Shown here in pieces: positions 1 to 23,414 of a stretch of DNA of 36,365 nt; positions within the stretch are counted from its first letter, which is position 1, and every line of letters starts with the position of its first letter. Origin of the DNA: a bacterium (lineage in GTDB: Bacteria; Planctomycetota; UBA8108; UBA1146); assembly GCA_029976805.1 (NCBI GenBank), contig JAPOLY010000022.1, forward strand, positions 1 through 36,365, in the 5' to 3' direction. The notes under the pieces were generated by a model. The model was given only the letters and a program-made list of their open reading frames with translations. It did no database searches and had not been told where the DNA came from. The position numbers were made by a program, and so were the translations under genes.

Positions 1-250
1 GAAGGGTCATCCCATGCATCAGCGTCAGAGCCATTCCTGCACCGGAGAGCAGAATCAGAATCACACCCACCGCACCGGCAGCACGAATGTTGTCGAGTAC
101 GGAAACCGTTTCGACGGGTGCTTCACCTTCGGCCTGAGCATAGGCAACGACGCCGGTTCCCAAAATCAGGGTCACAGCGAAGATGGTCAGGAGAAGAACG
201 CGGGTTGCAGAGGCACCCCGAATCTTGCTCATGAAACCTGTCAACTTCAT
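1..250 (-). CDS. MotA/TolQ/ExbB-like proton channel, N-terminal fragment (runs off window edge)
   Basis: Hand translation of the reverse complement from ATG at 250: MKLTGFMSKIRGASATRVLLLTIFAVTLILGTGVVAYAQAEGEAPVETVSVLDNIRAAGAVGVILILLSGAGMALTLMHGMTL. Signal/TM segment, Ala-rich linker, second TM segment; Shine-Dalgarno-like GAGGAAAG upstream. Family call rests on N-terminal architecture and position after TPR genes. Not in the ORF track because it is open at the edge. Confidence 0.5.
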   Translation of the reverse strand, partial: MKLTGFMSKIRGASATRVLLLTIFAVTLILGTGVVAYAQAEGEAPVETVSVLDNIRAAGAVGVILILLSGAGMALTLMHGMTL

Positions 251-289
251 TTTTCTTTCCTCTCTCACCTGTTCGTGAAGGTGATTCGA

Positions 290-1381
290 TTACTTGTTCC
301 AGCGGGAGTCCGGGGCGACCTGCTTCAGTCTTTGGGTCAAACTTTCCGCCCTGTCCGCATCTCCCTGTTTTTTGGCCAATTCCTTGGCCCGATACAACGC
401 TTCTGCGAGTACTTCGCCATTTCCGGTCGAAGCCATGACGGCAGCCCGGAGATAACGGATCATGGCCCACTGCAACTCACCGGCATCTCCGCCAGCCTGT
501 TCTTCTGTGGATCGTCCCCATACGAGCCAGCCGTGTGCTCGGGCTGCTGTGTTACCGAGGACATCCTTGTTTCGCGTCTCGAGGATTTGCTGACGCACCG
601 TATCGGCGGCCTGCTTCCACTGCTTCTGCCCCTGCTGTGCACTGGCATAACCAATCCATGCCTGACAGATCTGGTCGGTCGAGGCATTGGAGTCATTGGA
701 CACAGAGGAGAACTCTTCACGACAAGCGCCCCAGTTCTCCTGGGCCAACAGGCTTTGTGCCTTGCCCAGTCGTGCCCCGACAACCCAACGACGCCCCATG
801 TTTCCGGAAGCAAGACTGGAGAGCGCACTCTCCGCTTCCGAATAGTTTCCGGATTTGCGATGGGCTTCCGAGATCGCCATGCGTGCATGGGGAACGTAGA
901 AATCTTTTTTACTATCAAACTCGTTCAAGTAGGCCTCCAATGCGGAGACCGCTTCCTTGTACTTGGTCGCATCGGAATCACCCCAGCGAAGCAGGGACAA
1001 TCCGTGCATGTACATGGCACTCGATTTTTTCAGAGCGTCACCCATGCTGGTCGCCGACTTGAAACTGCTCGCAGCGGTTTCCCAGTCACCGTTTTCAAAG
1101 GCTCCCCGCCCTCGGGCCAAGCTGGAGGATTCTCTGGAGAAAACCAGACGTTCCACTTTGTCGGCGTCGACTTTTTGCGAAGTGCTGACTCCCGGCAGTT
1201 TGAACTGGACCTGCTCGTAAGTGGCTCCGGTAATCGTCACGTCTTCATAATTCCTGCCACCAGAGACAATAATCTGGTCCGCAAGGAGTCCGTTTCCGGC
1301 AAACGGAAGCATCATTCCGAAAGTCAGAAGAAAGAGCACGAAGTAGCGCTGCATGGTTGGCGTTCTTTCCATCATTTGCAT
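290..1381 (-). CDS. TPR-repeat secreted/periplasmic protein (363 aa)
   Basis: Full ORF; N-terminal signal-like sequence (MQRYFVLFLLTFGMMLPFAGNGLLA) and helical repeats with A/G/L TPR-like spacing (ARGRGAFENGDWETAASSFKSA; AISEAHRKSGNYSEAESALSSLA). Overlaps the stop of the upstream gene by about 10 nt. Confidence 0.75.
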   Translation of the reverse strand: MQMMERTPTMQRYFVLFLLTFGMMLPFAGNGLLADQIIVSGGRNYEDVTITGATYEQVQFKLPGVSTSQKVDADKVERLVFSRESSSLARGRGAFENGDWETAASSFKSATSMGDALKKSSAMYMHGLSLLRWGDSDATKYKEAVSALEAYLNEFDSKKDFYVPHARMAISEAHRKSGNYSEAESALSSLASGNMGRRWVVGARLGKAQSLLAQENWGACREEFSSVSNDSNASTDQICQAWIGYASAQQGQKQWKQAADTVRQQILETRNKDVLGNTAARAHGWLVWGRSTEEQAGGDAGELQWAMIRYLRAAVMASTGNGEVLAEALYRAKELAKKQGDADRAESLTQRLKQVAPDSRWNK

Positions 1382-4206
1382 TCTTCCTCCAGACGATCGA
1401 AGCGGGTCTGGAGTCCTTCCGGGGCAAAATCCTTGCCGTCCCCGGCCATCAACTTGCGACTGCGAATCAACTGAATGACATCTTCACAACGGCCCTGGGC
1501 TTTCAGTACTTCCATGTACTGCAGCCACGCAGACCAGTAATCACGCTCGAAGACCGGGTTGGTTCCGCCAGAGAAGAGCAGCGACTTGCGACGCTGATCG
1601 AGAATGGCGATGGCAGACTCAAGATCTTCGGTCATCGACTTGAGGCGGCTCGCTGAGCGATCGGACTGGTAGAGTCCCATTTCAGCAGTGGCCCTCTGAA
1701 TCAACACGAAAGGCGCTTCGTTGTAGCTCCCGTTGAGAGTGTTGTCTTCATAGTTCTCGATGATGGCATTGAGACTGTCGAGGGCTTCCTTGTTCCTGCC
1801 AGCGGCATTGGCAGCTTTTGCAAGGAAGTAGGAAACACCGATCACCAGTGATTCCTCACCGGATTCCAGCGCCTCCTCCTGAGCTTTCGACAACATCTCT
1901 GCAGCCTCTGCAGAGAAGCCTCCATCGATCAGGATCGACGCCAGACCCAGTCGGACTCCTGGTCCCGATTCTTCGAAGCCGGATCCCGGCAGACGGATCC
2001 AATCCAGGACCAACTCTCCTGCCCTGCGCTGGTTCTCCGGGGTGGAGGAAGCAGCATAGGCTTCGATCAGGTAGTAGGTACCGGCAACGAGAGTCTGACT
2101 GTCGGGCCAAACCTTGCGCAGTTCAGCCAAAACCTTTTCCGATTCAGCGGTCTTGCCGTCGGCAGCAAGGACTTCGAGCATGAAGAGCAACGCACCTTCG
2201 CGGTAAACGTTGTTGCCGCCGATCTCATTCAAAACAGGCTGCAAATACTTGAGTGCTTCCGCAGAGTCCTTGCCGCGGTCACCCCAGTAGATCTTTGCCA
2301 ACTCGTAACGAAGAACCGATTCACCACCGGCACTACGGGCTTCTCGCGCTTGAGAAAGCAGAGGAAGAATCTCACCGCTGGCATCCTTTTGGGCCTGCTC
2401 CGTATCAGTGCTGGAACGGTAGAGGCAACGGGCAGCACCGGCACGGGCCCTGAAGAAGAAGGGCACCTGCTTGTCTTCTTCACCGTCGTTGTAGGTTCTG
2501 GAGATTCTGCGGAACAATTCGCGGGCCTTGCGGTAATCGCCTTCGAGCTCCGCCTCAACAGCCTGTTGAAGTTTCAACTGCTCGCTTCCCAAACCCTGAG
2601 AATTGTCGGCAAACAGTTTCTCAGCGACCACCAGCAGATCATTCCACGGTCCGTCACCGGCGGTTCCGGCGAAATCACCGGCGATGGCAAAGAAGTTTTG
2701 TGCAGCCATCGCCACCATGCGTGAATCGGGGTAGTTCTCGGCCAACTCCTGATAGGCGATAGCAGCCTCTATCGATCGGCCAAGAGCATCGCTGGACTCA
2801 CCGATCTCGTAGAGTGCCTCGGCTCGCCATGTGGCGGCTTCCTTGCTGTCATCGGACGCGTAGAGAGCCAACTTTGCAGTTTCGATCGACTTCTCTGGCA
2901 ATCCGCGATCACGGAATCCCAAAGCAGCCCGTGCATAATATTCTGCGGGGAGATTGCCCGCTCCCAACTCTTGAAGCCTGCTCAATCCACGATTGAGACC
3001 GGTCACCACTTCCCGGGCCTGGCCGGGATCAGTGGAGTAAGCTTCCGGGTTGTCGAAGCGACTGATCACAGCATTGATCAACTCGAATCCTCCGACGCGG
3101 TCACCGCTGGCAAGCCGGGTGACCCCCTCTTCCACATCCAGGAGTGCGACGAGTGTCGCCAACTCCGGGTCTTCCGGATTTTTCCTGTAGGGGAAGTCGG
3201 GTTGCTCATCTTCGTAGAGGAAATCGAGCAGGTCGAGTCCATCCTGTGGCTGACCCGAGCGATTGTAGGCACGCAGGGAACCGGTCAGGGCCTCGACCCT
3301 CATTTGACGAATGAAGTAGATGACGTCGTCATTGTAGGGAGGATCTGCACTGGGTTCGATGTCGACCAGCAGTTCCAGAGCACCGGCTGCCTCAGCAGCC
3401 TGCCCCGCTGCCGAAAGCGCCTGACCATAGATCAGCTGCGCCTCATAGCGACGGCCAAAGTTTTCGTAACGGGAGTTGACAAACTCGTCCGCAAAGGTGG
3501 CGAGGGCCATGTACTTGGCCTGAGCCGCCTCACTGCCATCTGGTAACATCGCTGCATAAACCTTGTAGGAGTTCAGACGATTGAACTCCCAAAGATCACG
3601 AATGCGAGTTTCCTCGGCCAGTTTCCCAGCCAGTTCATCCCGATCGGAATCACTGGCCCGCATGACCTTGTCCTCGCTGCGCGAGACCTCGTCATTCAGG
3701 CGGCGAATGTTTTCATTCAGAACCTTGTCGATCTCTTCATTCCAGATGCGATCGCGAAGATCCATCGCCTGTTGACGCTGGGAAGGACTGGTTGCAAAAA
3801 CCATTTCAGTATTGGCATCGGAAAGCCTCAGCAGTGCGGCCAGCACTGACTCCAACTGGGCCCCCTTCGATCGGGGGTGATTCGGGTACTTTTTGGCGAG
3901 TTTCTGGATCTCGGCCTCATACCCATCCACGTCCCCATCGATCCGCATGGCATCCGCCAGAGCAAACTCCAGGCTCGCTCTGCCACTGGAATCTGCCGTC
4001 TTGATCCGGGACTGAATCCAGACCCGGGCAAGATCAGGGCTGCCATAGGTTCCGAGCAGTTCACTGACGAAAACGGTTTCCTCCATGGTCAACGGTCCCC
4101 TGCCCAACGACTGGGCAGGCGCGATTGCCGGTACAAGCAGTACCGTCAAGAGAGCCAGACCAGGGACGAAAGACGTCCGGAGGGTATGAGTCAATCCGTT
4201 GAACAT
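1372..4206 (-). CDS. Large TPR-repeat periplasmic protein (944 aa)
   Basis: Full ORF; signal peptide (LRTSFVPGLALLTVLLVPAIAPAQS); repeated TPR-like helices (AEALYEIGESSDALGRSIEAAIAYQELAENYPDSRMVAMAAQN; LKLQQAVEAELEGDYRKARELFRRI). Confidence 0.8.
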   Translation of the reverse strand: MFNGLTHTLRTSFVPGLALLTVLLVPAIAPAQSLGRGPLTMEETVFVSELLGTYGSPDLARVWIQSRIKTADSSGRASLEFALADAMRIDGDVDGYEAEIQKLAKKYPNHPRSKGAQLESVLAALLRLSDANTEMVFATSPSQRQQAMDLRDRIWNEEIDKVLNENIRRLNDEVSRSEDKVMRASDSDRDELAGKLAEETRIRDLWEFNRLNSYKVYAAMLPDGSEAAQAKYMALATFADEFVNSRYENFGRRYEAQLIYGQALSAAGQAAEAAGALELLVDIEPSADPPYNDDVIYFIRQMRVEALTGSLRAYNRSGQPQDGLDLLDFLYEDEQPDFPYRKNPEDPELATLVALLDVEEGVTRLASGDRVGGFELINAVISRFDNPEAYSTDPGQAREVVTGLNRGLSRLQELGAGNLPAEYYARAALGFRDRGLPEKSIETAKLALYASDDSKEAATWRAEALYEIGESSDALGRSIEAAIAYQELAENYPDSRMVAMAAQNFFAIAGDFAGTAGDGPWNDLLVVAEKLFADNSQGLGSEQLKLQQAVEAELEGDYRKARELFRRISRTYNDGEEDKQVPFFFRARAGAARCLYRSSTDTEQAQKDASGEILPLLSQAREARSAGGESVLRYELAKIYWGDRGKDSAEALKYLQPVLNEIGGNNVYREGALLFMLEVLAADGKTAESEKVLAELRKVWPDSQTLVAGTYYLIEAYAASSTPENQRRAGELVLDWIRLPGSGFEESGPGVRLGLASILIDGGFSAEAAEMLSKAQEEALESGEESLVIGVSYFLAKAANAAGRNKEALDSLNAIIENYEDNTLNGSYNEAPFVLIQRATAEMGLYQSDRSASRLKSMTEDLESAIAILDQRRKSLLFSGGTNPVFERDYWSAWLQYMEVLKAQGRCEDVIQLIRSRKLMAGDGKDFAPEGLQTRFDRLEEECK

Positions 4207-4245
4207 GAAAGCCTTCTATCTGAACTGCGTCAGATTTCCTTGCGA

Positions 4246-6762
4246 CTAGTTAAAGCGTTTCTCTTCCTCATCACGGATCACCGTGATTTTGGCACTGATC
4301 AGCACGAACAGGTTGGACTGCATACGGGCATTACCCTTGCGGCCAGCCAACAGGTCCAGAATCGGCAAACGAGAGAAGACCGGAATACCGGAGCGAGACT
4401 CCTGGGTAATCGTTCTCTTCAGGCCACCCACCAGAACCGTTCCACCGTCGGGAATCGTCACCGTGGTCTTGATGTTGGTCACCGAGAGCACCGGGAACTC
4501 CACGTTCAGGTTCGTCAGACCCAGAGTCAGGGTCTTGAATCTGGAGGGCAACTGCACCGCAAGAGTCGGCTCGATCTCGAGGATCACGTATTTGCGGTCA
4601 TGACTCACCGTCGGACGCACCTGGAGGATCGATCCACTGTTGAGGATTCCGATGACCGGGTTGATCACAGGAACCACACCGGTCTGGTTGACCTCGGCGT
4701 CCTCAATGTAGGCGCTCTGATCCACAACCAAAGAGTGGGAGATCTGGGTGTTGAAGGCTGTCACACGCGGTGCATCCAGCTTCTTGGTGCGCTGGATTTT
4801 CTGGTTCGCTTCCAGAATCGCCTCGAGGGCGTAACTGTCGAGAACGTTGTACTGCAGTGCAAAACCACCGGTGTCAGAAAGGTTGAAGGGAGACACCGAA
4901 GAACCCAGTGGCAAAGAGAAGGCGTTGTAGACCGCTGCGCGGACATCAATCTCTCCCTGAGCGTCGACGATCTCGAAACCGGAGGCAATCTGCGTTCCTG
5001 CACCGTCGATGTCATTGATCGGGTTCGGAAGGTTCGAGTTGAACGGGTTTCCGTAATCGACACCGATCGACTCCAGGAAATTATCCTGCAGATCGATGAA
5101 GCGGCTTTCCACTGTCACCATCACACCGGTGGACTTGCGCAGTGCCTTGAGCAACTGCACCAGTTTGCGGTGATTGGCGAGGGTGGTGTTGGCCACGAGA
5201 CGACCGCTCTGGATCTTGACCGATTCGCCATCCGGCTCGCCTTCGTCACCGAAGAGAGCATTGACAACGAGTTCGACAAGAATGTCGGAATCAAGAGTCG
5301 TCTCCTGAGAGTCCTCTTCACCGCCGATGTCAAAGAGTCCACCGGCACCGCCTTCATCGCCGTCTTGACTTGACTCAAGGGCGAGACGGGGAGCACGGAA
5401 ATCAGGCTTGTCCTTGGTGATATCGGAAACTTCGTAGAACTCCAGGAACACATCGTTGCGGACCGAATCGGAGGGTCCAATCAGGACCGCTCCTGAACGG
5501 ATGACGTAAGTGAAGGGAGGATCGTTCCCCTGAAGGACCAGATTCAGCACGTTCTCCAGCGGCAAGTCCGTCACTTCCGCCAAGCGGACAGTGCCATCTC
5601 CACCCTCAAGAGCATCGGAGGCTTCTTTTGTCAGCACAAAGTTGATACCGGAGAGCTCTCTCAGGAACTGAATTACCTGCTCAAAAGGCTCATCTTCGAA
5701 CTCAACACTGGCAACACGAACCTTCAGGCGTGAACGGATGGTTTTGACCTGCTGGCTCTCAACTGCCTGAAGACGATCTTCGAGGGACTGCTCCTGACGG
5801 CTGATGCGCAACCACTCTTCGCGAGTCGGGAAGTTGAAGATATCCGTGTAGGGAATCTCTGACTCCAACTGGCTCAGGAAAGTACGATCCCACTCCAACT
5901 GAGTCTGAAGGCTGGTATCCAGAACTTCATAAAGATGACGAAGCTCGGCCGCCTCACGACGCAGTGCACGGACATCTTTTCTGGAAGGATCGAGCAACAG
6001 CACTTCGTCGCAAAGGGTAATCACACGCTCGTAATCACGCTCGGAGAAGAGCCTGCGTGCCTGACGAAGGATCTCGTCGATACGATTCTGAATGAAGGAG
6101 ACGGAGCGGGCCATCTCGGACTCCGCTTCAGCAAGGATACGCATCTCACGTTCACGCTTCTCAGTTGCCGCGAACTCATTCTGAAGACGGATCGACTCCT
6201 CTTTCGACTGACGGGCACGATTCTGCTGATCGCTCAGGTCGTAATCAAAAGGGAACCAGCGGATACGCTCAAGGATCTGATCAAAGACCGTGATCGCCTT
6301 GTCGTAACTGCCTTCGTCCATGGCTCTGCGTCCATCGAGATAGAGGCGCTCGAGCTCAAAGACGTCCTGCTGAAGGCGGACCTTCTTCTCGTCGACCATG
6401 CGACGCTGAAGATCACGGATGTCTCCGCTTCGGTCACTCAGCAACATCAAGACTGTATCGAGAAGTTCACGGGCGGTCTCATTGCCCGGATCGAGGCGCA
6501 CGGCCTCCTGCAACTTCTCTTCTGCTTCGATGTAGCGCAGTTCGTTGATCAACTTCTCTGCTGCGTTGACCGCCTGAGTGGCAGCACCGGTACGGGCCTG
6601 ATTCTCCAGATTGACCTCGCGAATCAGTCCGTCCACGCCCCCATCCTGGGCCATGACCGGTTGAGCAGCGAAGCTGAGGAGCAACAGGGCCAGGGCGATC
6701 ACTGAGAAAACGCTTCTCGCCGCGGCAATTCTGAAGTTGGGCTCCCGGAGGCTTATCGACAT
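4246..6762 (-). CDS. Secretin (GspD/PilQ-type outer membrane channel) with N-terminal TPR-like and STN-like domains
   Basis: C-terminal secretin-type sequence: LDAPRVTAFNTQISHSLVVDQSAYIEDAEV, IPDGGTVLVGGLKRTITQESRSGIPVFSRLPILDLLAGRKG. STN-like: RVASVEFEDEPFEQVIQFLRELSGINFVLTKEA...LPLENVLNLVLQ. TPR-like: AAEKLINELRYIEAEEKLQEAVRLDPGNETARELLD. ORF track begins at 6831, but ATG at 6762 follows AAGGAGAGATCG and precedes a signal peptide (MSISLREPNFRIAAARSVFSVIALALLLLSFAAQPVMAQ). Confidence 0.9.
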   Translation of the reverse strand: MSISLREPNFRIAAARSVFSVIALALLLLSFAAQPVMAQDGGVDGLIREVNLENQARTGAATQAVNAAEKLINELRYIEAEEKLQEAVRLDPGNETARELLDTVLMLLSDRSGDIRDLQRRMVDEKKVRLQQDVFELERLYLDGRRAMDEGSYDKAITVFDQILERIRWFPFDYDLSDQQNRARQSKEESIRLQNEFAATEKREREMRILAEAESEMARSVSFIQNRIDEILRQARRLFSERDYERVITLCDEVLLLDPSRKDVRALRREAAELRHLYEVLDTSLQTQLEWDRTFLSQLESEIPYTDIFNFPTREEWLRISRQEQSLEDRLQAVESQQVKTIRSRLKVRVASVEFEDEPFEQVIQFLRELSGINFVLTKEASDALEGGDGTVRLAEVTDLPLENVLNLVLQGNDPPFTYVIRSGAVLIGPSDSVRNDVFLEFYEVSDITKDKPDFRAPRLALESSQDGDEGGAGGLFDIGGEEDSQETTLDSDILVELVVNALFGDEGEPDGESVKIQSGRLVANTTLANHRKLVQLLKALRKSTGVMVTVESRFIDLQDNFLESIGVDYGNPFNSNLPNPINDIDGAGTQIASGFEIVDAQGEIDVRAAVYNAFSLPLGSSVSPFNLSDTGGFALQYNVLDSYALEAILEANQKIQRTKKLDAPRVTAFNTQISHSLVVDQSAYIEDAEVNQTGVVPVINPVIGILNSGSILQVRPTVSHDRKYVILEIEPTLAVQLPSRFKTLTLGLTNLNVEFPVLSVTNIKTTVTIPDGGTVLVGGLKRTITQESRSGIPVFSRLPILDLLAGRKGNARMQSNLFVLISAKITVIRDEEEKRFN

Positions 6763-6792
6763 CGATCTCTCCTTGCTTTGAAGTACTTGCTT

Positions 6793-6808
6793 GCGAATCC
6801 ACATTCGC
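6793..6808 (-). repeat. Stem-loop in secretin leader (proximal)
   Basis: GCGAAT CCAC ATTCGC, 6-bp perfect stem, upstream of the secretin SD. Confidence 0.5.
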
Positions 6809-6822
6809 TCGCAACTTTTCCG

Positions 6823-6846
6823 GACCAACACTGTTGGTCATTTTTT
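6823..6846. repeat. Stem-loop in secretin leader (distal), with plus-strand T-tract
   Basis: GACCAAC ACT GTTGGTC then A and TTTTTT on the plus strand; minus-strand transcript carries the same hairpin preceded by an A-tract. Confidence 0.55.
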
Positions 6847-6927
6847 GTTGTTTCAATTCGCACCGAAGAGCCTTCGCTCCCTTGGGGTGCTGGCCAATTC
6901 GCCCCGTGGCGCAGTGGCCCGAACAGT

Positions 6928-8031
6928 CTAGTCGTCACCGCCAAAGAGGCCCCCACCTGAGGGTCGGGTTCTCTTGGGCTTTTCCACTTCGACTTCATCC
7001 GCGACTTCATTGTCAGAGGAATCGGCCTCTTCGTCATCCCCATCCGATTCGGCGGGATCACTGTCAAAGTTGTCCCAACCGCTGGGAGTCAGCGACAGGG
7101 GATCGTCATTGTTTTTGAGGTATGCTCTTTTTCCGCTGTCGTTTTTCAAAACTACCACTCGACCGTCAGCCGTATCCTGAATGCGCTCAAGTCGGAATCC
7201 GGTTCCGAACAACTCGGAAGCCTGGGCTCCCGCCTTCGGTTCCGTCACAACTTTGGCTGACTTCTTGGCAGAGTCGGAATCCCAGTCCCAACGGGAGTAC
7301 TGGATGGTTGCCCTACCCGGCATGAAGTTTCCGGAACTGTCGAGCCTTCCAACCTGCGCACCGCTGACTTTCCAGGCGTCATCTGCCGGCATCAGCACCG
7401 CTCCGGAGTCGCCGGAAACCACAGAGTTAGAGCCATCCCGCGGGAACTGCATGCTTCCGGAAAGACCGGCAGCACTGGTTGCAATCCGATAGCGGTAACT
7501 GCGCCCAGCCTCAAGGGGGCCGGACTGAATGGCGAAGGCTTGACCGGAAGAGAACCCACTGACCTGCTGGAGCTTGGTCCAGTCACCATCCCCTTCCTGC
7601 ATCTCAACGACACAGGAGGTGATTTCCGCATTGGAAAAGAGCGCATGACGCCCGGAGATCTCGTGATAGGTACTCTGATCAGAAGAATCGCGAACCACTT
7701 TGACAGAAGCGATGTAGGGAGCATCCAGAGTCGGTGCGACCAGAATGATGCGCTCCTTGACCGCCAGCCTTGCCGGCTTTCGATAGAAAGCCCACTCCGG
7801 GATCGCATTGTCCGTTCCGACTTCGTAGGCCAGGCGCACACTTTCCAGAACTTCGGGAACACTCTGGTCACCCAAATCCTGGGAAGCCATGTTCTCTTCG
7901 ATCTTGTCGTTGGCCTCACTGATTTTGCTGGAATATTCACTTCCAGGATCACTGATCAGGAAAGGGTAGCCGAATCCGACAACCAGAAGCAGAGCAACGA
8001 CTGCGATGGTGATCTTGTCGATATTTTGCAT
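6928..8031 (-). CDS. Single-TM envelope assembly protein between PilO-like gene and secretin (367 aa, function unknown)
   Basis: Complete ORF; N-terminal TM (KITIAVVALLLVVGFGYPFLI) with coiled-coil then beta-rich extracytoplasmic region and acidic Pro/Arg tail (SDGDDEEADSSDNEVADEVEVEKPKRTRPSGGGLFGGDD). Confidence 0.75.
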   Translation of the reverse strand: MQNIDKITIAVVALLLVVGFGYPFLISDPGSEYSSKISEANDKIEENMASQDLGDQSVPEVLESVRLAYEVGTDNAIPEWAFYRKPARLAVKERIILVAPTLDAPYIASVKVVRDSSDQSTYHEISGRHALFSNAEITSCVVEMQEGDGDWTKLQQVSGFSSGQAFAIQSGPLEAGRSYRYRIATSAAGLSGSMQFPRDGSNSVVSGDSGAVLMPADDAWKVSGAQVGRLDSSGNFMPGRATIQYSRWDWDSDSAKKSAKVVTEPKAGAQASELFGTGFRLERIQDTADGRVVVLKNDSGKRAYLKNNDDPLSLTPSGWDNFDSDPAESDGDDEEADSSDNEVADEVEVEKPKRTRPSGGGLFGGDD

Positions 8032-8034
8032 CGA

Positions 8035-8862
8035 TTAGCCCCTTTCCGATTCAGAAGAAGCAAGAACAGCTCCTTCATGGATCTGCATTTCCAGAAGCAG
8101 GAGCACATTGGGCTCACCCATGTCTCCTTCTTCCGGGGACACCTCACTGACGACGTCGAAGAGGAGGTTTTCACGATCCTTGCTGACCGCCACCTTCTCC
8201 ACGGAATAGTCGATAAAGGGGTGCTTCATGATTTGTCCCAAAAATTCAGCCACCCGATTTCCAGGAATGGCCATTTTGAGAGAAACAGGGAAGCGGCTCG
8301 GACCTTCATCGGCATTGCGACTTCCGCGGGTGGTTTTGCGATCGATCACCAGCTCCAGAATTTCAGAGCCGCGATTGTTAAGGGTCAGGTTGACCAGATG
8401 GCTCTGCACTTTCCAGCGACGCTCGTAATCGACGATCTTGGTCACATCACCCAGATCGTCCTGAATAAAGAAGGGCAATTCGGCGTCAGCGGCAAGGCCG
8501 GTGCTCGAGCGGTAACGCTTGGCAAGGAGATCAAAGCCATCTCGGTAACCGGCAGTCCACCCACTCAGGTCACTGCTCGCTCCTTCTTCAAAGCGGCTGA
8601 CCCTGCTGGTGTAAAACTCCTCTGCCCGATCCAACTGCTTTTCCCAACTGGCGTTGAACTTCTCTTCAGCCTCCAGAAGGTCCTTCGTTGGAAGGTCACG
8701 ATCCACCCGCTTGGAGTATTCGCGCAGGCTTTTCTGCTGCTTTCTCAGTTTGTCGGTCACCGAGTCGTACTCGGACATCTTGGGCATCACCAAGAGTACG
8801 AAAAGCACGATCCAGACGACCACTTCCGCTCCAAGAAGACTCCAGAATACTTTGTCACTCAT
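8035..8862 (-). CDS. PilN/PilO-like single-TM assembly protein (275 aa)
   Basis: Short cytoplasmic N-terminus, TM (VFWSLLGAEVVVWIVLFVLLVMP), coiled coil (YDSVTDKLRKQQKSLREYSKRV), C-terminal alpha/beta region; sits between pilM-like gene and secretin. Confidence 0.65.
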   Translation of the reverse strand: MSDKVFWSLLGAEVVVWIVLFVLLVMPKMSEYDSVTDKLRKQQKSLREYSKRVDRDLPTKDLLEAEEKFNASWEKQLDRAEEFYTSRVSRFEEGASSDLSGWTAGYRDGFDLLAKRYRSSTGLAADAELPFFIQDDLGDVTKIVDYERRWKVQSHLVNLTLNNRGSEILELVIDRKTTRGSRNADEGPSRFPVSLKMAIPGNRVAEFLGQIMKHPFIDYSVEKVAVSKDRENLLFDVVSEVSPEEGDMGEPNVLLLLEMQIHEGAVLASSESERG

Positions 8863-8871
8863 GGCGCCCCC

Positions 8872-10737
8872 CTATTCTTCTTCGCCAGTGGATTCCCCCG
8901 GCAAGGGCGGGTAAATCCAACGGATGGTCCAAGGGTAAAGCGGAGTGCCGTGATCCTTGGCAGCGTCCTCACTGCCTCCGCGGGTACGTCCCATTTTGAA
9001 ATTGTCGTCCGGTGCCCACATCAGCATCGTTTCCATGCCGACTTCGCGGGACACCCGCTCGCGACCATAATCTGCTTCGCCAAATGAAGCCTTCAAAGAA
9101 GCCTCAATCGGATCCGCAACCATCGCCTTGAGCTGATTGTTGTTGGTAGTGGCGTCTCCCTGGTCATAGCGGAAGCCACGAACGGTCACCTGATAACGAT
9201 CGTTGTAAACGATGTCTTCGGCATCGGTTTTGGAACCCTTGTCGAGGATCGTCCCGTCCTCGCGCACGCGAATTTTGCGAATTTCAAAACCTGAGAGCCA
9301 GGTCTTGCCCGTATTCAGCGACTCCTGTTCCGTTTCCACGGATCCACGGGTGCTGTCCTTGTCGGGACCATCTTCCACTTCGATTCGCACCGATTCAGAA
9401 ACCTGTTCCGAATTGGGAATACTGGCGATCAATGCCAGAACCTCGCTGGGAGCCAAGCGTCCGGCACCGTGAGCCAGAAGAAGGTTCTGTCTGGTTTCGA
9501 GACTGGATCGATCGACATCCTGAAGATCAGTCAGTTTCTTCTCATTTGATTTCAGTTCGTTGACAAGTTTCGCCTCTTGGAGAACCGCATTGGCGTCGTC
9601 AATCTTGCCCCCGAAAATCAGAATGAAGAAAACAATCAGCAAGTAGAGGGAAGCCGTCGCCCCCAACACCACTTTTTGCTTCTTCTTGAACTCTGCCGCC
9701 TCTTGCTGCTCCTGCGGCAACAGATTCAGTTGAACGTCACCGAGGCCGAGAGCCTGCAATCCCGCACCGATACAAGAAGTAAAGGACTGGAGATCCTGTT
9801 GCACCAAGTTTGCTTCGGGGCGAATCCGGACTCTCTGAAGGGATTTGAAAATCTGTACACGTATCCGCAGGTTGTCTTCAAGGAACTTGCGCAGTCCGAC
9901 AACCTTGCCGCTTCCTCCAAAGAGGAAGAGATCCTCAATTTTCAACTCCCCGGCCCGTGACTTGTAGTAACCGATCGAACGATTGATCTCACTGACAAGA
10001 TCGCGAAGCAATGGCTGCAGCACTTCAAAAATCTTGGCGGCGTGATCCGACTTGGCAGCGGTCACCTTGAGGTTCTCAGCCTCTTCTTCAGAGCAGTTGA
10101 AACGCTCCTGAAGGGCATTCGTGAAATCCTTGCCAGAGACAGGGATCGAACGGAACCAGTAACGGGACTCATTGACGACGACAAGATCGGTGTGATGAGC
10201 ACCGATCTCGAGGGCGACCATGGGACGCTTCGGACGAAGATCGAACCGGATCAGATTCAACAGTCCCACATTGCCCAGTGTCAGGACATCGACGCCGAGG
10301 TTGTCGGAATCAAGATCCTCCAGAAGGTCGGAAACCTCTTCCTGGCGAACCGCAAAGATTCCAATTTCCTTTTCGCCATCTTCGGTATCGCCACAGACAT
10401 GGCTATCCCAAATGACGTCTTCCATCGGCAGGGGAATATTCTGTTGAGCTTCGTAACCGATCAACTCTTCCAGCTTTTTTCCATCCACGGGCGGAACCGT
10501 GATGAAACTCGTGAGAGCAGAGCGACTGGGAAGAGCGATCGCCAGAGGACCGGCGATCGAATGCTGCGATGCCAATGTCGAAATCGCAGCGGCATTGGCC
10601 TCTGGGCCAGCCCCCGATGGATGCTCTATTTTTTCAGCGGCAATGATTTCAGCACCATTGCCGGATCGCTGGATTTTGATCGCCTTGAGGGAACTCTTTC
10701 CCCCGTCGATACACCAGACTTCGTCGAAGTCAGCCAT
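8872..10737 (-). CDS. PilM-like actin-fold ATPase fused to PilN-like TM/coiled-coil domain
   Basis: PilM-type sequence: VWCIDGGKSSLKAIKIQ, LPSRSALTSFITVPPVDGKKLEELIGYEAQQNIPLPMEDVIWDSHV, DLFLFGGSGKVVGLRKFLEDNL. After ~380 aa a TM segment (VVLGATASLYLLIVFFILIFGG) and coiled coil follow. ATG at 10737 preceded by GGAGAGAGG is preferred over the GTG at 10752. Confidence 0.85.
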   Translation of the reverse strand: MADFDEVWCIDGGKSSLKAIKIQRSGNGAEIIAAEKIEHPSGAGPEANAAAISTLASQHSIAGPLAIALPSRSALTSFITVPPVDGKKLEELIGYEAQQNIPLPMEDVIWDSHVCGDTEDGEKEIGIFAVRQEEVSDLLEDLDSDNLGVDVLTLGNVGLLNLIRFDLRPKRPMVALEIGAHHTDLVVVNESRYWFRSIPVSGKDFTNALQERFNCSEEEAENLKVTAAKSDHAAKIFEVLQPLLRDLVSEINRSIGYYKSRAGELKIEDLFLFGGSGKVVGLRKFLEDNLRIRVQIFKSLQRVRIRPEANLVQQDLQSFTSCIGAGLQALGLGDVQLNLLPQEQQEAAEFKKKQKVVLGATASLYLLIVFFILIFGGKIDDANAVLQEAKLVNELKSNEKKLTDLQDVDRSSLETRQNLLLAHGAGRLAPSEVLALIASIPNSEQVSESVRIEVEDGPDKDSTRGSVETEQESLNTGKTWLSGFEIRKIRVREDGTILDKGSKTDAEDIVYNDRYQVTVRGFRYDQGDATTNNNQLKAMVADPIEASLKASFGEADYGRERVSREVGMETMLMWAPDDNFKMGRTRGGSEDAAKDHGTPLYPWTIRWIYPPLPGESTGEEE

Positions 10738-17080: not shown

Positions 17081-19516
17081 TTACCAGCCGGACCTGCGCC
17101 CCCTGAAACCGCGTTGATCGATGGCCCCCAGCCATTCCCGCAAGCCGATATCGACGCGAAAGGTGGTGTCGTCATTCAGACCGGCATCGACGTCGAGGGC
17201 GAAGCCGAGGCGAAAAGTCCGGAAGTTTCGGCCCATTTCCCACCACTGACCGAGAACCTCTTCTCCGTCGAGATCATATTCGACGAAGAGGCCCAGATCC
17301 CAGCGGGGCGAGGCAACAAATCGACCACCTGCCAAAAGAGTTTCCTGATATTCAGGCCGGTTTCTCCACGACAATTCAAAGAGTCCCTGATCCGCCTCGA
17401 GCCAGCGCAGGCCAAAGTTTTTCCCCCGATTGACGCCCAACCCGAGGTGGTGACGACTCTCACCAAAGACGCTCCAACCTCCCGAAGCATGGAGAACCAA
17501 CTCCGAATAGAGGTCCCCCCATTCATCCCCGGAATTATCTCTTGCTGCCTCCGGATAATAGAGGGCATCGATGCGCATTTCCGCCACCGTCCGTGCACCC
17601 AATCGATAGAGACGCTCACGATCATTCGTGGATTGACGGGTCTGCAGACGATGGCCCATGGACAAGGTGACCACTTCCCGATCACCCAATCCGTCAGTCG
17701 CGTCCAGAGACAGGGGGACATCCGCCGGATCCAGAGAAGAGTCAAACAGCCCCGAGTAATCCCCTCTCAAATCCACCACATGACGTAATCCGTCGATGGC
17801 AAATGCATCACTCTTGACGTCAAAGACGCGCGAAAACCGTGTCGCTGCTTCAATCCCTGCGGACAGGATCGATCGATCCTCCTCGTCAAGATTGGAAGAG
17901 GTCCAACGAGTCCAGCGGACTCCTGCGGAAGGAATCACATTCAGCCAGCGACTGGCAACCAATGGACGCCGGATCTCACTTCGCACGTCCAGTCGACGAG
18001 TCTCCCCGCCCACCGTCGCCGAGGATTCTCCGGGCACCAGCTCCAGGTCGGCAAAAACCAGATCCGAATCGACACGCAAGCCCGCGGGCAGCTCCATGTC
18101 GAGAGCACGGAATGCCAATTCCGGTGACCGCTCGATCTGATCTTCAAAGTCTTCATAGCCCCCATCAAAACGAAGGCTGCCGACGAGGCTCTCACTCAAT
18201 TCCTGACGCACGGAGAAAAAGTTCTCGGGCCGCTTTACAGTTCTCGCTTCTGTGCGGAAAAACTCATCGACGAATCCCGCATCACTGGCCGACGACCATT
18301 CGGCATCCAGCCAGGTACTGGAAGTCACTCTGGCCTGCACGAAGGCACGGCCACGGAAACGATCCTCTTCGGTGACCGGGTCGCCGTTGCTGTCTGCAGT
18401 CGCCTCATCCCTGATCTGCCAAAAAGAACCATACCCGTAGAGATCAAGGCGATCATCCGGGTCTGCAGACCAGCGCAGGGGGTCGCGCCCCCATTCAAAA
18501 TCAAGGCCATACCCGGTTCCCCTTTTGGAGAGGGAATCGATGCGAGGGGACAGATCGATCTCGTCCTCGAATCTCTCGGGCAGCAGGAAATCACCGTTCC
18601 AACGGGTATCCACACGGGAGCCGAAGCGGGAAGAGTCAGAAATTCTCAGGTCGCGCAGGGGAAAGGAACGTCCCCAGCGACTGTCCCATTGGGTCGATGG
18701 GAAATAGGCCACTGGCCACCCCCCCAACTCGAGACGGGCTCCCTTCATCGACACCAGATGTCCTCCGGGGCCAGACTCATTGGCCCGTTGATCCACTTCT
18801 TCCCTCGGGATTGCAGAGCCGGCATTCGCGACCAACGCCCATTCCGGATCGTCAAATAAATCCGTTGTGAAGACGATGTCCGTCCCACTTACTCCACTGA
18901 AATCATCGACCTCCAACAAACGAGCTGCGATTCCCATGGAGGAAAGAGCCGCCTCTGATGAGTTCAGCTCTGAGACTCCACCCACCCATGATTCGGCCAT
19001 ACTGCGAGCTCGGCGGGGATCGTCTTTCGGAAGGGTGCGCAACATCTCCACAAGCTCGGAAGTGATGCGAATTCGGGCGTCCGTCAAAACCATGCGTCGG
19101 GCATCGACCTCATAGAAAACGGTTTCAGCCTGAAAGGTCTGCCCCGCACGGTCGAGCAAGACTCCACCCAATGCCAAAACTCTCGGGCGAATCGGTCCAT
19201 TCTCAGGATCGACACCATCGACGTAGACGCCTACCGCATCCGCTCTCAGTGAAAAGCCGCGCCCCTCGAGGAGAACATTTCCCAAAACCACCAGAGAACG
19301 ACCTCCACCGTCGGTAGAGATATCGGCTTCCAGTCGGTCATAAAAAATTCGGAGGTCTTCGTCTGTCCCCAGCAAACCCAAAGTGGTCTGGGCAGAGATG
19401 ACCGGAGCAAAGGCTGTCAGCAGAAAAAGGATCAGGGCAAGCCGAGGGAACAGGCCCGAAAGCCGGGTCAACCCGGAACCTTCGATTTGATTCACAGATG
19501 TCTCAGAGAATTGCAC
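17081..19516 (-). CDS. LptD/OstA-like outer-membrane beta-barrel protein (811 aa)
   Basis: Signal peptide, OstA-like N-terminal region (SLVVLGNVLLEGRGFSLRADAVGVYVDG...AETVFYEVDARRMVLTDARIRI), LptD-like core (GARLELGGWPVAYFPSTQWDSRWGRSFPLRDLRISDSSRFGSRVDTRWNGDFLLPER), alternating-strand barrel, C-terminal aromatic residue. Confidence 0.7.
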   Translation of the reverse strand: MQFSETSVNQIEGSGLTRLSGLFPRLALILFLLTAFAPVISAQTTLGLLGTDEDLRIFYDRLEADISTDGGGRSLVVLGNVLLEGRGFSLRADAVGVYVDGVDPENGPIRPRVLALGGVLLDRAGQTFQAETVFYEVDARRMVLTDARIRITSELVEMLRTLPKDDPRRARSMAESWVGGVSELNSSEAALSSMGIAARLLEVDDFSGVSGTDIVFTTDLFDDPEWALVANAGSAIPREEVDQRANESGPGGHLVSMKGARLELGGWPVAYFPSTQWDSRWGRSFPLRDLRISDSSRFGSRVDTRWNGDFLLPERFEDEIDLSPRIDSLSKRGTGYGLDFEWGRDPLRWSADPDDRLDLYGYGSFWQIRDEATADSNGDPVTEEDRFRGRAFVQARVTSSTWLDAEWSSASDAGFVDEFFRTEARTVKRPENFFSVRQELSESLVGSLRFDGGYEDFEDQIERSPELAFRALDMELPAGLRVDSDLVFADLELVPGESSATVGGETRRLDVRSEIRRPLVASRWLNVIPSAGVRWTRWTSSNLDEEDRSILSAGIEAATRFSRVFDVKSDAFAIDGLRHVVDLRGDYSGLFDSSLDPADVPLSLDATDGLGDREVVTLSMGHRLQTRQSTNDRERLYRLGARTVAEMRIDALYYPEAARDNSGDEWGDLYSELVLHASGGWSVFGESRHHLGLGVNRGKNFGLRWLEADQGLFELSWRNRPEYQETLLAGGRFVASPRWDLGLFVEYDLDGEEVLGQWWEMGRNFRTFRLGFALDVDAGLNDDTTFRVDIGLREWLGAIDQRGFRGRRSGW

Positions 19517-19687
19517 CGGAATCTTCCCCCATCTCCCGAGTCGAACCGGAGAGGTTCCGGCTTCCCCTGCCGGTCATGACCTCTGGACTGATGCCCTGAG
19601 ATTCACGAAACCCCTCAATACGAGACACGGTAGTCTGTCCCCGCAGGGCCATCCACAACTTCCATCAGGCCTGACCGGAAGCGGACC

Positions 19688-21514
19688 TCAGTTGCCCGCC
19701 CGAATCCGTACCTGCAACAGGAAGTTGATCAGCAGATTTTCGATGGTCGCCTCGTTGTCGGAACTGCTCTGCTCACCAAAATGGGAAAGGACATGAATGA
19801 CGCGCCCCTTCTTGACGGTGAATGTCACGGCGACCGCTCCCTCTCCGCACTCTTTTCGCAGATCTTCACTGTCGATCAGGACTTGCACCTTCTTCGAACG
19901 AATGTCCAGCGAAGGACTCTCCTTGTCGATCTTCCACTGGTGCTTGATCAGTCGAATATCGGGATCTTCGATCTCTCCGGGGGCGTCCAGATCGCTGTTG
20001 CCGACTCCGGTTTTTCCCCGGTCCCCATCGACATCTCCAGGATCGTCTTCCGAGGCGGGGTCGTACTCCGCGTCCTCGTCGTCGTCTTCATCGTCGAGTC
20101 CGTAGGCTCTCCTGCGCAAGGCATCCATATCGACAGGGGGAACGAATACGCCCCTCAGCAGAGGGTGGGAAGTCATCCCTTTTTCGGGAGAGATACCAAA
20201 GTTCCCTCCATCCAGGGCAGTGCCGGATCGGAGGAACTTGTTGAATCCCACTTCCAAAATCTCGATCAAGCACCAGTCCTCGGTAAAGAGGTAACCACCT
20301 TTTTCGACAAAACTCACAATTTTGTCGATGGCGTCCTTGTTCATTTTGAATTGAACCTCGTCATGGGCACCTTCCCCAACACAACGATGCATACGGTTAC
20401 CGGTGTATTCGCCTGGCTTGTGATTGGGGTTCTGACAAAATTTATGGATATGGCTGCAGTTGATAAAGACTGCCGCCACGCCCTTGAAACTGAAGGAGGA
20501 TTTTTCAACCTCCCCTTTCTCGATGACGGTATGAGGAATGGAGATTCGTTCGAGGACATGCTCAATGTGATCATAGTTGGTATCGAAACCGTTTTTGGCT
20601 GTGGGTCCCTTGATGACCAGCACCTTGCCCGGGGGCAAATCTTCCAAGCCCAGAAACTGTCGGGCACGCACGGGGTCGAGGGGTCTTGCCAAACCAGTGG
20701 TGGACTCGTGGTTTTCAGCCTCCTCGCGGATCACCTTGAGACCGCGACTGCGCTCCCTTTCCCACCAGCCTTGCCAGTTGATCAGACTGTTTCCCAGTTG
20801 CTGCATCGTCAGAGCTTCCATGGCAGAAATCAGCGATCTCTTCAGCTCCGTCGGTGGCCGCTTGCCGTCTTTTTCCTTGGCGCATTCACGGGCAAGAATC
20901 GGCATCAACACATCCACCGTACGGCGAACCGGAATCTCTGCAGCGATATCGACAGCCATCATTTGCATGTCGATGGGACAGTATTCCATCACCCGGCGAA
21001 TCACCCGGTTGGCATACTTGCTGCGGGTCTTCCTCAAAGCATTCAGGAGATCTCTGGCTATCGGCTTGGACTTGTACCGAACAACAAACTCACCCATCTC
21101 TGTGAAGGCGTCCGCCCCCTTGAATCCGGCAACGCCCTGGAGAAGAAACCAGTAAATGTCATCGGCGGTAGTGCGGGAGAGACTGTTGGCCGTACTGAGA
21201 ACTGCGGCGGTGGCGTTTCTGCCCGGCATTCGACCCATGGTGCGCAGGACCTCGGCCAGAGCGGATGCGTCTCCTGACATCGCCGCTTGCTGAACCAGCT
21301 TGCGCAGTTCTTTGGCAGACGGCCCTTCCTTCTCATCCCCATCTTCCAGCGAATGAGTGAAAAGTGGTGTCGTTTCTCTCGGCTCGAACTGCAATCTTTG
21401 TGTAAAACTCTGCTGGGCATCCAAAGGATGACAAACAGCACCCACAAAAAACCACAGACCAAGAAAAATCGATGCAGTGAAAAAACTTCGTGAAGAGAAA
21501 GACATCTTCTTCAT
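19688..21514 (-). CDS. HEAT-like repeat protein with DUF4159-like C-terminal region
   Basis: N-terminal signal after ATG at 21514 (MKKMSFSSRSFFTASIFLGLWFFVGAV), helical repeats, then VEKGGYLFTEDWCLIEILEVGFNKFL...GMTSHPLLRGVF, GAVAVTFTVKKGRVIHVLSHFGEQ. DUF4159 assignment is from recollection of the family. Confidence 0.6.
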   Translation of the reverse strand: MKKMSFSSRSFFTASIFLGLWFFVGAVCHPLDAQQSFTQRLQFEPRETTPLFTHSLEDGDEKEGPSAKELRKLVQQAAMSGDASALAEVLRTMGRMPGRNATAAVLSTANSLSRTTADDIYWFLLQGVAGFKGADAFTEMGEFVVRYKSKPIARDLLNALRKTRSKYANRVIRRVMEYCPIDMQMMAVDIAAEIPVRRTVDVLMPILARECAKEKDGKRPPTELKRSLISAMEALTMQQLGNSLINWQGWWERERSRGLKVIREEAENHESTTGLARPLDPVRARQFLGLEDLPPGKVLVIKGPTAKNGFDTNYDHIEHVLERISIPHTVIEKGEVEKSSFSFKGVAAVFINCSHIHKFCQNPNHKPGEYTGNRMHRCVGEGAHDEVQFKMNKDAIDKIVSFVEKGGYLFTEDWCLIEILEVGFNKFLRSGTALDGGNFGISPEKGMTSHPLLRGVFVPPVDMDALRRRAYGLDDEDDDEDAEYDPASEDDPGDVDGDRGKTGVGNSDLDAPGEIEDPDIRLIKHQWKIDKESPSLDIRSKKVQVLIDSEDLRKECGEGAVAVTFTVKKGRVIHVLSHFGEQSSSDNEATIENLLINFLLQVRIRAGN

Positions 21515-21731
21515 TCCATTCCTATCGACACTGCCTGAGCAGCGTCCGCGATTGTCGAGAAGGTCCTGGAAGAAAGGGTCAGAATGGGACGGGCTGATCC
21601 ACAATGAACTCACTTGCGCACTCTTCCGTGGGACGCCCCCATTCTAGCGAATGAAATCGGAGACGGCAGTACCTAGTCGGCAACTCGGGCGAGCCGCTGA
21701 GCAGGTCAAGACTGGACGCTATTTTCTGGGA

Positions 21732-23414
21732 TCAGGGACTTTCAGCGAGCAGTCTCAGGGCTACCTGTGAAATGATGGAATCATCCCTGAATGTCGGATC
21801 GAGCTTGTACCAGGCCAGGTTTCCGTTGCGATCCACTGCAACCATCGTCGCTCCACCCACAGGACAGTTGTACTGTCCAAAGTTGGGTGATCCGTCCTCC
21901 AGATCGAGACCGGCGGGGAACGCCAGCCCCATGCGAGCGCACTGCCCCGTCAGCTTGTCCAACTGCTCTTGAGCAGGAGCCTTGCCCTTGCTCGAAGCGA
22001 TCCAGGCCACCCGCAATCCGTCATTCCCGTGGGTCATGTACAGTTTCTGCAGGTTCTCCAGAGTTTCGAAGTAGCGAGGGTTTTCGTACGGAGCAAAAAG
22101 CATCAGCAAGACGTTCCCTTGCTCCTGGGCCGGATCAAAATTGACACCACCCATCCAGTTTTCTCCCAGTGAAATCGGCGGAGTCGGTTTTCCTGCGAAT
22201 CGAAGCAGACTTTCGAGAACCCTTTCGGTTCTCTTGGCATAAATCTGTCCGACCTGGGAAGCGGTCTGTGCATTGATCAGCTCTGTGAGGATTTCCATCT
22301 CACGGGTAAAACTGGCGGACGCCGATTTGTAGTTCCCCAGAGCAAATTCCAGGAAACCGATGGCGAAGTTCACCTCTTCGTAATAACGCTGGAAATCCTT
22401 GCGACAACGGTCACTGATCTCGACCGTCTTGTCACCGAACACCAGAGGGTCTCCCCTGTGGGCGTTCTCGATGATGCCTTCGATGGACTTCCACCAGCGC
22501 AGGCAGTCGACGAGACGACCCGCTTCCTGCAACGCCTTCGCTTTCAATCGCAAGACGTGGGGAAGAAGGTCGGAATCGGTGTGATTCTCCAGAAATACAT
22601 CCGCAGTCGCGGCAGCACCTTTGTGATCTCTATCACGGATCTGGGCATTCAGCAAAGCGGTCAAAACCACGTCGAGATCCTCAGCGTCCGGGCAGCCATC
22701 GAGGATCCGCTTGTACTCATTGATGCAACGGGGGTACTGCTGGCCATGCCAATAGGCATCCGCTTTCAGACGAATCAACTCACAGGGCGGACCGTCCTCA
22801 GCCTGAACCTTGGCCAGTTCACCATCGAGGAGCTCGTGGATCCGGTCGAAGTAACCCTGCTTCAGGGCTGCGGTCCATGCGGCCGGAGCATCCTGACCAT
22901 TTCGTTCCTTGTAGAGCCTGCCACTGTCGATGAAGTGACGATTGCAATTCATCAGGTAGATACGGCACACCGCGGGAGTCACCTTGGAAATACTTTTTCC
23001 AGAAGGGTAATTACGGAAGTAGTTTTCACCCCGTAACAGAATTTCATCGGTGAGTTTCTGGATTTCGCCGATACTCATCCCCTTGGGTTCCCGAACATCT
23101 TCGGGCATGCGCGAGACGGCATCGAGAACCCACTGCGCTTCCTTCTCTTCCTGAAGACGACGCGTCAACTCATCCTTGACGTCTGATCCATCTTGACTGG
23201 CATTCCAACCCAGTGCGGCTGCACCCTGTTGACCGATGTAGAGATGGATTCCCGCAGTCCCCATAAACAGGAAAAGTCCCAAAAGGGTTCGCAGAAAAAA
23301 TCGGGTGCGGCTCTGGTGGCTCTCCCAGGATCGATGGCTCATCGGTTCGGCAACCTCTCTGGTCATGATCGGCGAAACGGTTCGGAGGGCGCCAGAGGTC
23401 CAAAAACCTCTCAT
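21732..23414 (-). CDS. TPR protein with C-terminal thioredoxin-fold (TlpA/AhpC-like) domain lacking CxxC
   Basis: N-terminal TM (FFLRTLLGLFLFMGTAGIHLYIG), TPR-like middle, C-terminal NVLLMLFAPYENPRYFETLENLQKLYMTHGNDGLRVAWIASS...NCPVGGATMVAVDRNGNLAWYKLDP. True start may be an internal ATG (23366 or 23342). Confidence 0.65.
   Translation of the reverse strand: MRGFWTSGALRTVSPIMTREVAEPMSHRSWESHQSRTRFFLRTLLGLFLFMGTAGIHLYIGQQGAAALGWNASQDGSDVKDELTRRLQEEKEAQWVLDAVSRMPEDVREPKGMSIGEIQKLTDEILLRGENYFRNYPSGKSISKVTPAVCRIYLMNCNRHFIDSGRLYKERNGQDAPAAWTAALKQGYFDRIHELLDGELAKVQAEDGPPCELIRLKADAYWHGQQYPRCINEYKRILDGCPDAEDLDVVLTALLNAQIRDRDHKGAAATADVFLENHTDSDLLPHVLRLKAKALQEAGRLVDCLRWWKSIEGIIENAHRGDPLVFGDKTVEISDRCRKDFQRYYEEVNFAIGFLEFALGNYKSASASFTREMEILTELINAQTASQVGQIYAKRTERVLESLLRFAGKPTPPISLGENWMGGVNFDPAQEQGNVLLMLFAPYENPRYFETLENLQKLYMTHGNDGLRVAWIASSKGKAPAQEQLDKLTGQCARMGLAFPAGLDLEDGSPNFGQYNCPVGGATMVAVDRNGNLAWYKLDPTFRDDSIISQVALRLLAESP

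Follow-up and report, generated by a model that had tools for sequence, protein, structure and literature searches.

The well-studied secretin machines, those of type II and type III secretion and of the type IV pilus, are powered by cytoplasmic ATPases. The locus analysed here raises the question of what drives a secretin whose gene shares an operon with PilM-like and ExbB-like genes. The window, that is, the whole stretch of 36,365 nucleotides, spans, from end to end, contig C59 of a metagenome-assembled genome (2.88 Mb, 91% complete). Its positions 1 to 10737 are filled by seven codirectional minus-strand genes, either overlapping or spaced by 3 to about 165 nt, and the gene coordinates thus agree with a preliminary description of the locus. 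Named close relatives of the locus, seven loci from a scan of named genomes, are Planctomycetota; the locus is therefore planctomycetal, not verrucomicrobial. In our proposal, an ancient operon of the Planctomycetota encodes a trans-envelope machine, and the window contains its first two thirds; we give this explanation, taken whole, an even chance.

Outside the operon, the window encodes three proteins in a row that match no Pfam family (17081-23414; 804, 608, and 560 aa), a protein of 1105 aa in which carboxypeptidase-regulatory-like repeats occur at least six times (23537-26854), and a protein combining fasciclin and CIA30 domains (29452-30801).

A PilM-PilN fusion, two single-TM proteins, and a TPR-secretin

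The first gene encodes a 621 aa protein, whose start codon was corrected to the ATG at 10737. Its residues 1-335 (9733-10737, minus strand) constitute a PilM-like actin-fold domain, which scored 136 bits against NCBIfam TIGR01175 (cut-off 133) and matched Pfam PilM_2 with an E value of 1.5e-27. Its profile retrieved the PilM structures 3jc8 (2.7e-50) and 2ych (1.4e-46) from the PDB. The remaining part (8872-9732, minus strand), which begins where the PilM domain ends at about residue 335, contains the PilN-typical motif LNLLPQE, a transmembrane (TM) helix, and a periplasmic domain that matches PilN. Since the strict NLLPxE motif was present in 28/64 only, the PilN identity was taken from profile comparison, where the C-terminal part of the fusion family aligned with full-length planctomycete PilN at 97% probability (hhalign, E 1.1e-10). 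The fusions were separate from conventional PilM in a PilM tree, which was not used as proof because the support for the fusion group was weak (57/71) and the branches were long. The locus thus provides a PilM/GspL-type cytoplasmic ring component together with PilN, and the fusion proposed in the preliminary description is supported by both the TIGR01175 score and the PilN alignment.

Structure prediction had been proposed for the 275 aa and 367 aa proteins that follow, for which we found no Pfam or NCBIfam family, and no significant hit in PDB sequence searches with their profiles. The AlphaFold2 model of the 275 aa protein (p275; 8035-8862, minus strand), with a mean pLDDT of only 64, consists of a TM helix, a coiled coil, and an alpha-beta-beta-alpha-beta-beta domain at about 8080-8445. 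Its best Foldseek matches were Amuc_1100 (6lad, E 2e-4) and PilO of M. xanthus (3jc8_O, E 2.4e-4). The p275 profile scored 82.8% against conventional PilO over its full length in hhalign, and poorly against the other conventional components. We regard p275 as an inner-membrane protein that resembles Amuc_1100 and PilO, on structure models of modest confidence, and hence as the putative PilO/GspM-type protein of the locus.

The 367 aa protein (p367; 6928-8031, minus strand) has one TM helix, an FN3-like beta-sandwich at about 7396-7734, and an acidic tail, and is predicted to be periplasmic. The AlphaFold2 model was confident only at residues ~100-212 and uncertain elsewhere; Foldseek matched it to FN3 domains with probabilities up to 1.0, yet with E values of at least 2e-3. 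Its identification as PilP was rejected, since hhalign gave only 0.1% against the protein that occupies the place of PilP in the conventional locus; by this test of p367, no PilP/GspC protein was found at the locus. What stands for p367 is the FN3-like domain and a position corresponding to that of Amuc_1099.

The fourth gene (4246-6831, minus strand) encodes a TPR-secretin, secretin 1, with a secretin domain at about 4285-4803 (PF00263, 4.6e-19) and an N-terminal TPR at about 6481-6555 (TPR_2, 5.8e-6). Translation probably starts near 6762, as in the relatives L009, L010, and L015, which gives a protein of 838 aa. A secretin pore is thus encoded, with scores under the PilQ, MshL, and GspD cut-offs. 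The STN domain that had also been assigned to this protein gave a sub-threshold match only (14.8 bits, E 0.027), whereas the secretin and TPR assignments stood. In some lineages (L056, L086, L087) three to four secretin-like genes stand in tandem after the fusion gene.

The next two genes encode proteins of 944 aa (1372-4206, minus strand; TPR_6 6.6e-13, TPR_14 2.2e-12) and 363 aa (290-1381, minus strand; TPR_19 6.4e-9), which confirms the TPR repeats previously read in both. Each protein has a signal peptide-like N-terminus, and the two genes overlap by 10 nt. The position of the 363 aa TPR gene immediately 5' of exbB is conserved.

The ExbB-ExbD-ExbD genes and their linkage to the fusion

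The last gene of the window (2-250, minus strand) is the 5' part of exbB, encoding 83 aa and cut by the contig end. The fragment (83-89 aa) had no significant match in Pfam or NCBIfam. We nevertheless assign it to ExbB, as the preliminary description had done, because its sequence agrees at 93% identity with the N-terminal end of the full-length relative in L009 (254 aa), the full-length protein of another relative (L038) matches MotA_ExbB (PF01618, 5.6e-30), and the remainder of the gene lies on contig C64 of this genome. C64 overlaps window bases 1-227 (227 nt at 94% identity), and therefore the assembly broke inside exbB. About 6% of positions differ between these overlapping ends (window 1-227 and C64 1-227), which suggests strain variation.

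The operon extends beyond exbB. On C64 and in relatives, it continues with the genes for ExbD1, ExbD2, a second secretin, a HAD hydrolase, and glycosyltransferases. Both ExbD proteins matched PF02472 (5.4e-16 and 2e-17), and the proton-binding Asp was invariant (100%) in the 41 and 43 sequences of the two. By sequence, ExbB and both ExbD are genuine family members with the features of an ExbBD/TolQR proton motor. Of the exbD/tolR and tonB genes that the preliminary description suggested looking for beyond exbB, exbD follows, in two copies; tonB does not, and the second secretin stands in its stead. Secretin 2 is a TPR-secretin of about 900 aa with a lipobox-like N-terminus in this clade. The HAD hydrolase gene follows secretin 2 in many families (L108 4699-5430 and loci across the phylum), a conserved link for which the reason is not obvious.

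Only two MotA_ExbB genes are present in this genome. An ordinary Ton system lying by chance beside a secretin locus would account for the family membership of ExbB and ExbD. It is disfavoured to the point of being scarcely credible, as the operon lacks tonB, and three genomes with the operon, namely this one (91% complete), G004, and G008, yielded no match to TonB_C or to the Plug domain of TonB-dependent receptors. TonB_C was likewise not detected in 7 of the 37 genomes with the linkage described below. No TonB- or TolA-like transducer was found in the operon, and TolA, TolB, and Pal were not seen among its classified genes. Because TonB_C and Plug were not detected, the motor probably powers a system of another kind than Ton, although a divergent transducer may have escaped detection.

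Whether the association of these genes is conserved was determined in a sample of 119 planctomycete genomes. Strong matches to the ExbB profile were obtained in 113/119 genomes and matches to the PilMN profile in 97/119; the 77 genomes with strong fusion matches were used for the linkage count. A codirectional exbB lay 8.4-18.8 kb downstream of the fusion gene in 37 of these 77, representing 21 families. Random placement would yield about 0.3 linked genomes, a crude expectation that ignores shared ancestry, so that the family count is the better measure. Eight loci from the same genus and family have the intact order, PilMN, p275, p367, secretin 1, TPR, TPR, ExbB, ExbD1, ExbD2, and secretin 2, and this order is recognisable throughout the phylum. 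Gene order is thus conserved among relatives; a lack of such conservation would have refuted the preliminary description. A record titled 'Bacillota bacterium' (QNYK01000063.1) also carries the operon, with a PilMN identity of 62%; this title is probably wrong or outdated.

Some unlinked cases are due to contig ends, this genome included. In several complete or near-complete genomes (e.g. G071, G051, and G108), the PilMN triple has neither a secretin nor exbB next to it; one of them, the complete genome G071, carries TPR-TPR-ExbB-ExbD-ExbD at a locus apart from the triple (L100 and L109). These are, then, two modules that are joined in many lineages, and the motor need not be dedicated to secretins everywhere. 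They could even be functionally separate within one operon, an Akkermansia-like PilMNO-secretin module beside a Tol-like TPR-TolQ-TolR-TolR module for outer-membrane tethering or another motor task. The TPR-tolQ-tolR-tolR cassettes of PVC bacteria (PMC12204202) would agree with this, as would the scores of ExbB, which are higher against the TolQ model (81 bits) than against the ExbB model (57 bits), both below cut-off. We consider such independence rather improbable in view of the linkage in 21 families and of the position of secretin 2 directly after ExbD2, both on C64 and in many other loci.

ATPase genes and the proposed machine

The preliminary description suggested that the secretin is coupled to an ExbBD-like motor rather than to PilB/PilT ATPases. 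The absence of such ATPases is shown for the gene cluster only: PilB/GspE-type ATPase, PilC, and (pseudo)pilin genes are absent from it, and none lies inside the cluster in any of 65 retrieved loci. The scan of these loci gave no PilC and a single ATPase match (L087, distal and on the opposite strand); three prepilin-like genes were also found, all outside the interval from PilMN to ExbB. In this genome, both PilB and PilT types were found at loci away from the cluster. Four GspE/PilB-type ATPases are encoded on C80 (two), C55, and C10, and several PilT-type ATPases and PilC/GspF genes are scattered over the contigs. PilB and PilC genes lie on C80 and C55, type II secretion genes on C10, and C19 carries conventional PilM, PilN, PilO, a fourth protein, and PilQ, plus a PilT. 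Two further PilM-like loci were noticed. One, on C47 (L067 5145-13064), is a gene cluster that also encodes FHA proteins, a TPR protein, and pilin-like proteins, and is possibly another pseudopilus system; the other, on C11 (L068 8892-10505), encodes a fourth PilM-like protein with a weak PilM_2 match (1.3e-6).

These scattered genes lend some weight to another explanation, in which the operon provides a divergent type IV pilus or pseudopilus with its alignment complex, while PilB, PilC, and pilins are encoded elsewhere and ExbBD and the TPR proteins are accessories, for example in opening or stabilising the pore. The T2SSE-family ATPase PF00437 is universal in the sampled phylum (119/119 genomes), and the homologous Akkermansia cluster has been described as pilus-related (PMC4960237, PMC5332112). 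Against it, the separate conventional sets on C19 and C10 have alignment proteins of their own. A complete conventional system lacking just the components of our operon, which would have refuted the preliminary description, is not what the genome contains, because the conventional loci have their own PilM, PilN, PilO, and secretin. ATPase and pilin genes are also practically never close to the cluster, and the ExbB linkage extends over 21 families. We hold the pilus explanation to be a serious contender, though a clearly less probable one than a proton-driven machine. The absence of an ATPase was rejected as a test of independence, given PF00437 in every genome. Because of this and of the conventional sets in the same genome, we infer, and do not observe, that the machine runs without PilB or PilT; an ATPase acting in trans is possible.

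The best reading of the operon, on which we are evenly divided, is a double-secretin machine scaffolded by PilMNO and coupled to the proton motive force. The PilM-PilN fusion, the PilO/Amuc_1100-like p275, and the FN3-like single-TM p367 would form an inner-membrane and periplasmic scaffold, which would sit under the TPR-secretin pore as the alignment complex does in the type IV pilus. The ExbB-ExbD-ExbD proton channel of the same operon would supply mechanical energy from the proton motive force, the two TPR proteins would be likely periplasmic couplers, and the second TPR-secretin may be a second or alternative pore. We infer that the motor and the secretins belong to a single machine, which would carry macromolecules, or else a fibre, through the outer membrane. 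The gene cluster hints at a mechanism, not described so far, by which traffic or force across the envelope could be powered. If true, outer-membrane traffic would be coupled to energy in a new way, through a secretin and PilMNO scaffold tied to ExbBD across the phylum.

Planctomycetes have crateriform structures that connect the outer and cytoplasmic membranes; fibres bind dextran, and CCCP abolishes its uptake (Boedeker et al. 2017, PMC5394234). A proton-driven, envelope-spanning pore would fit both the structures and the CCCP-sensitive uptake, and the operon would offer candidate genes for them. The more specific proposal, that the crateriform structures are formed by, or cooperate with, a secretin machine that is driven by the proton motive force and takes up macromolecules, for instance polysaccharide, into the periplasm independently of PilB/PilT, is conjectural, and we think it unlikely. 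Working genetics exist in the phylum: in P. limnophila, three pilQ-like genes were deleted and were dispensable (PMC11958385).

Comparison with known systems

The type IVa pilus PilMNOPQ complex shares with the operon homologues of PilM, PilN, and PilO and a secretin. The operon differs in that PilM and PilN are fused, PilP was not found at the locus, the cluster has no ATPase, PilC, or pilins, and a conventional PilM-PilN-PilO-PilQ locus is separately present in the genome. With the Ton and Tol-Pal systems it shares the ExbB/TolQ and ExbD/TolR families; it differs in having two ExbD and secretins, with neither TonB nor its receptor detected in this genome.

Proton-driven motors energise outer-membrane transport or surface movement in type IX secretion (GldLM) and in Agl-Glt. 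The Agl-Glt/Nfs machinery of Myxococcus has one TolQ-like and two TolR-like subunits together with TPR proteins, and our operon could in principle encode an analogous gliding or surface-polysaccharide machine, given its ExbB-ExbD-ExbD set, its TPR partners, and the glycosyltransferases downstream. To our knowledge, GldLM and Agl-Glt consist of other proteins, with neither a secretin nor PilMNO, and, within the cluster, conservation reaches less far for the glycosyltransferases than for the remaining genes. Such a machine is thus very unlikely.

The PVC cassettes, in which TPR, tolQ, tolR, and tolR genes are followed by vWA genes (PMC12204202), agree with the operon in the order of a TPR gene, a single TolQ/ExbB gene, and two TolR/ExbD genes that are unlike each other. 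In the operon, PilMNO and a secretin come before, and a secretin rather than a vWA gene comes after.

The likeness to a PVC-type secretin locus, seen earlier in Amuc_1098-1101 of Akkermansia muciniphila, is supported. The first four genes, for PilM-like, Amuc_1100-fold, single-TM, and ~900 aa TPR-secretin proteins, correspond in content and order to Amuc_1101, 1100, 1099, and 1098, as judged from gene order and models. The curated NCBIfam cut-offs are far from reached, with 74/750 bits for secretin 1 and 114/750 bits for secretin 2 against NF042912 (the Amuc_1098 family), and 189/650 bits for the fusion against NF045709 (the Amuc_1101 family). The planctomycetal operon adds TPR proteins, ExbB, two ExbD, and secretin 2 to the Amuc cluster itself (Amuc_1098-1101, with 1102), which the comparison covers, and gives Amuc_1100 and Amuc_1098 a context. 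No description joining PilM/secretin with ExbB/ExbD/TolQ modules was found in the open-licence literature, PVC bacteria included. Each half of the operon has already been reported; the union of the PilMNO-secretin and ExbBD modules appeared nowhere in the literature searched.
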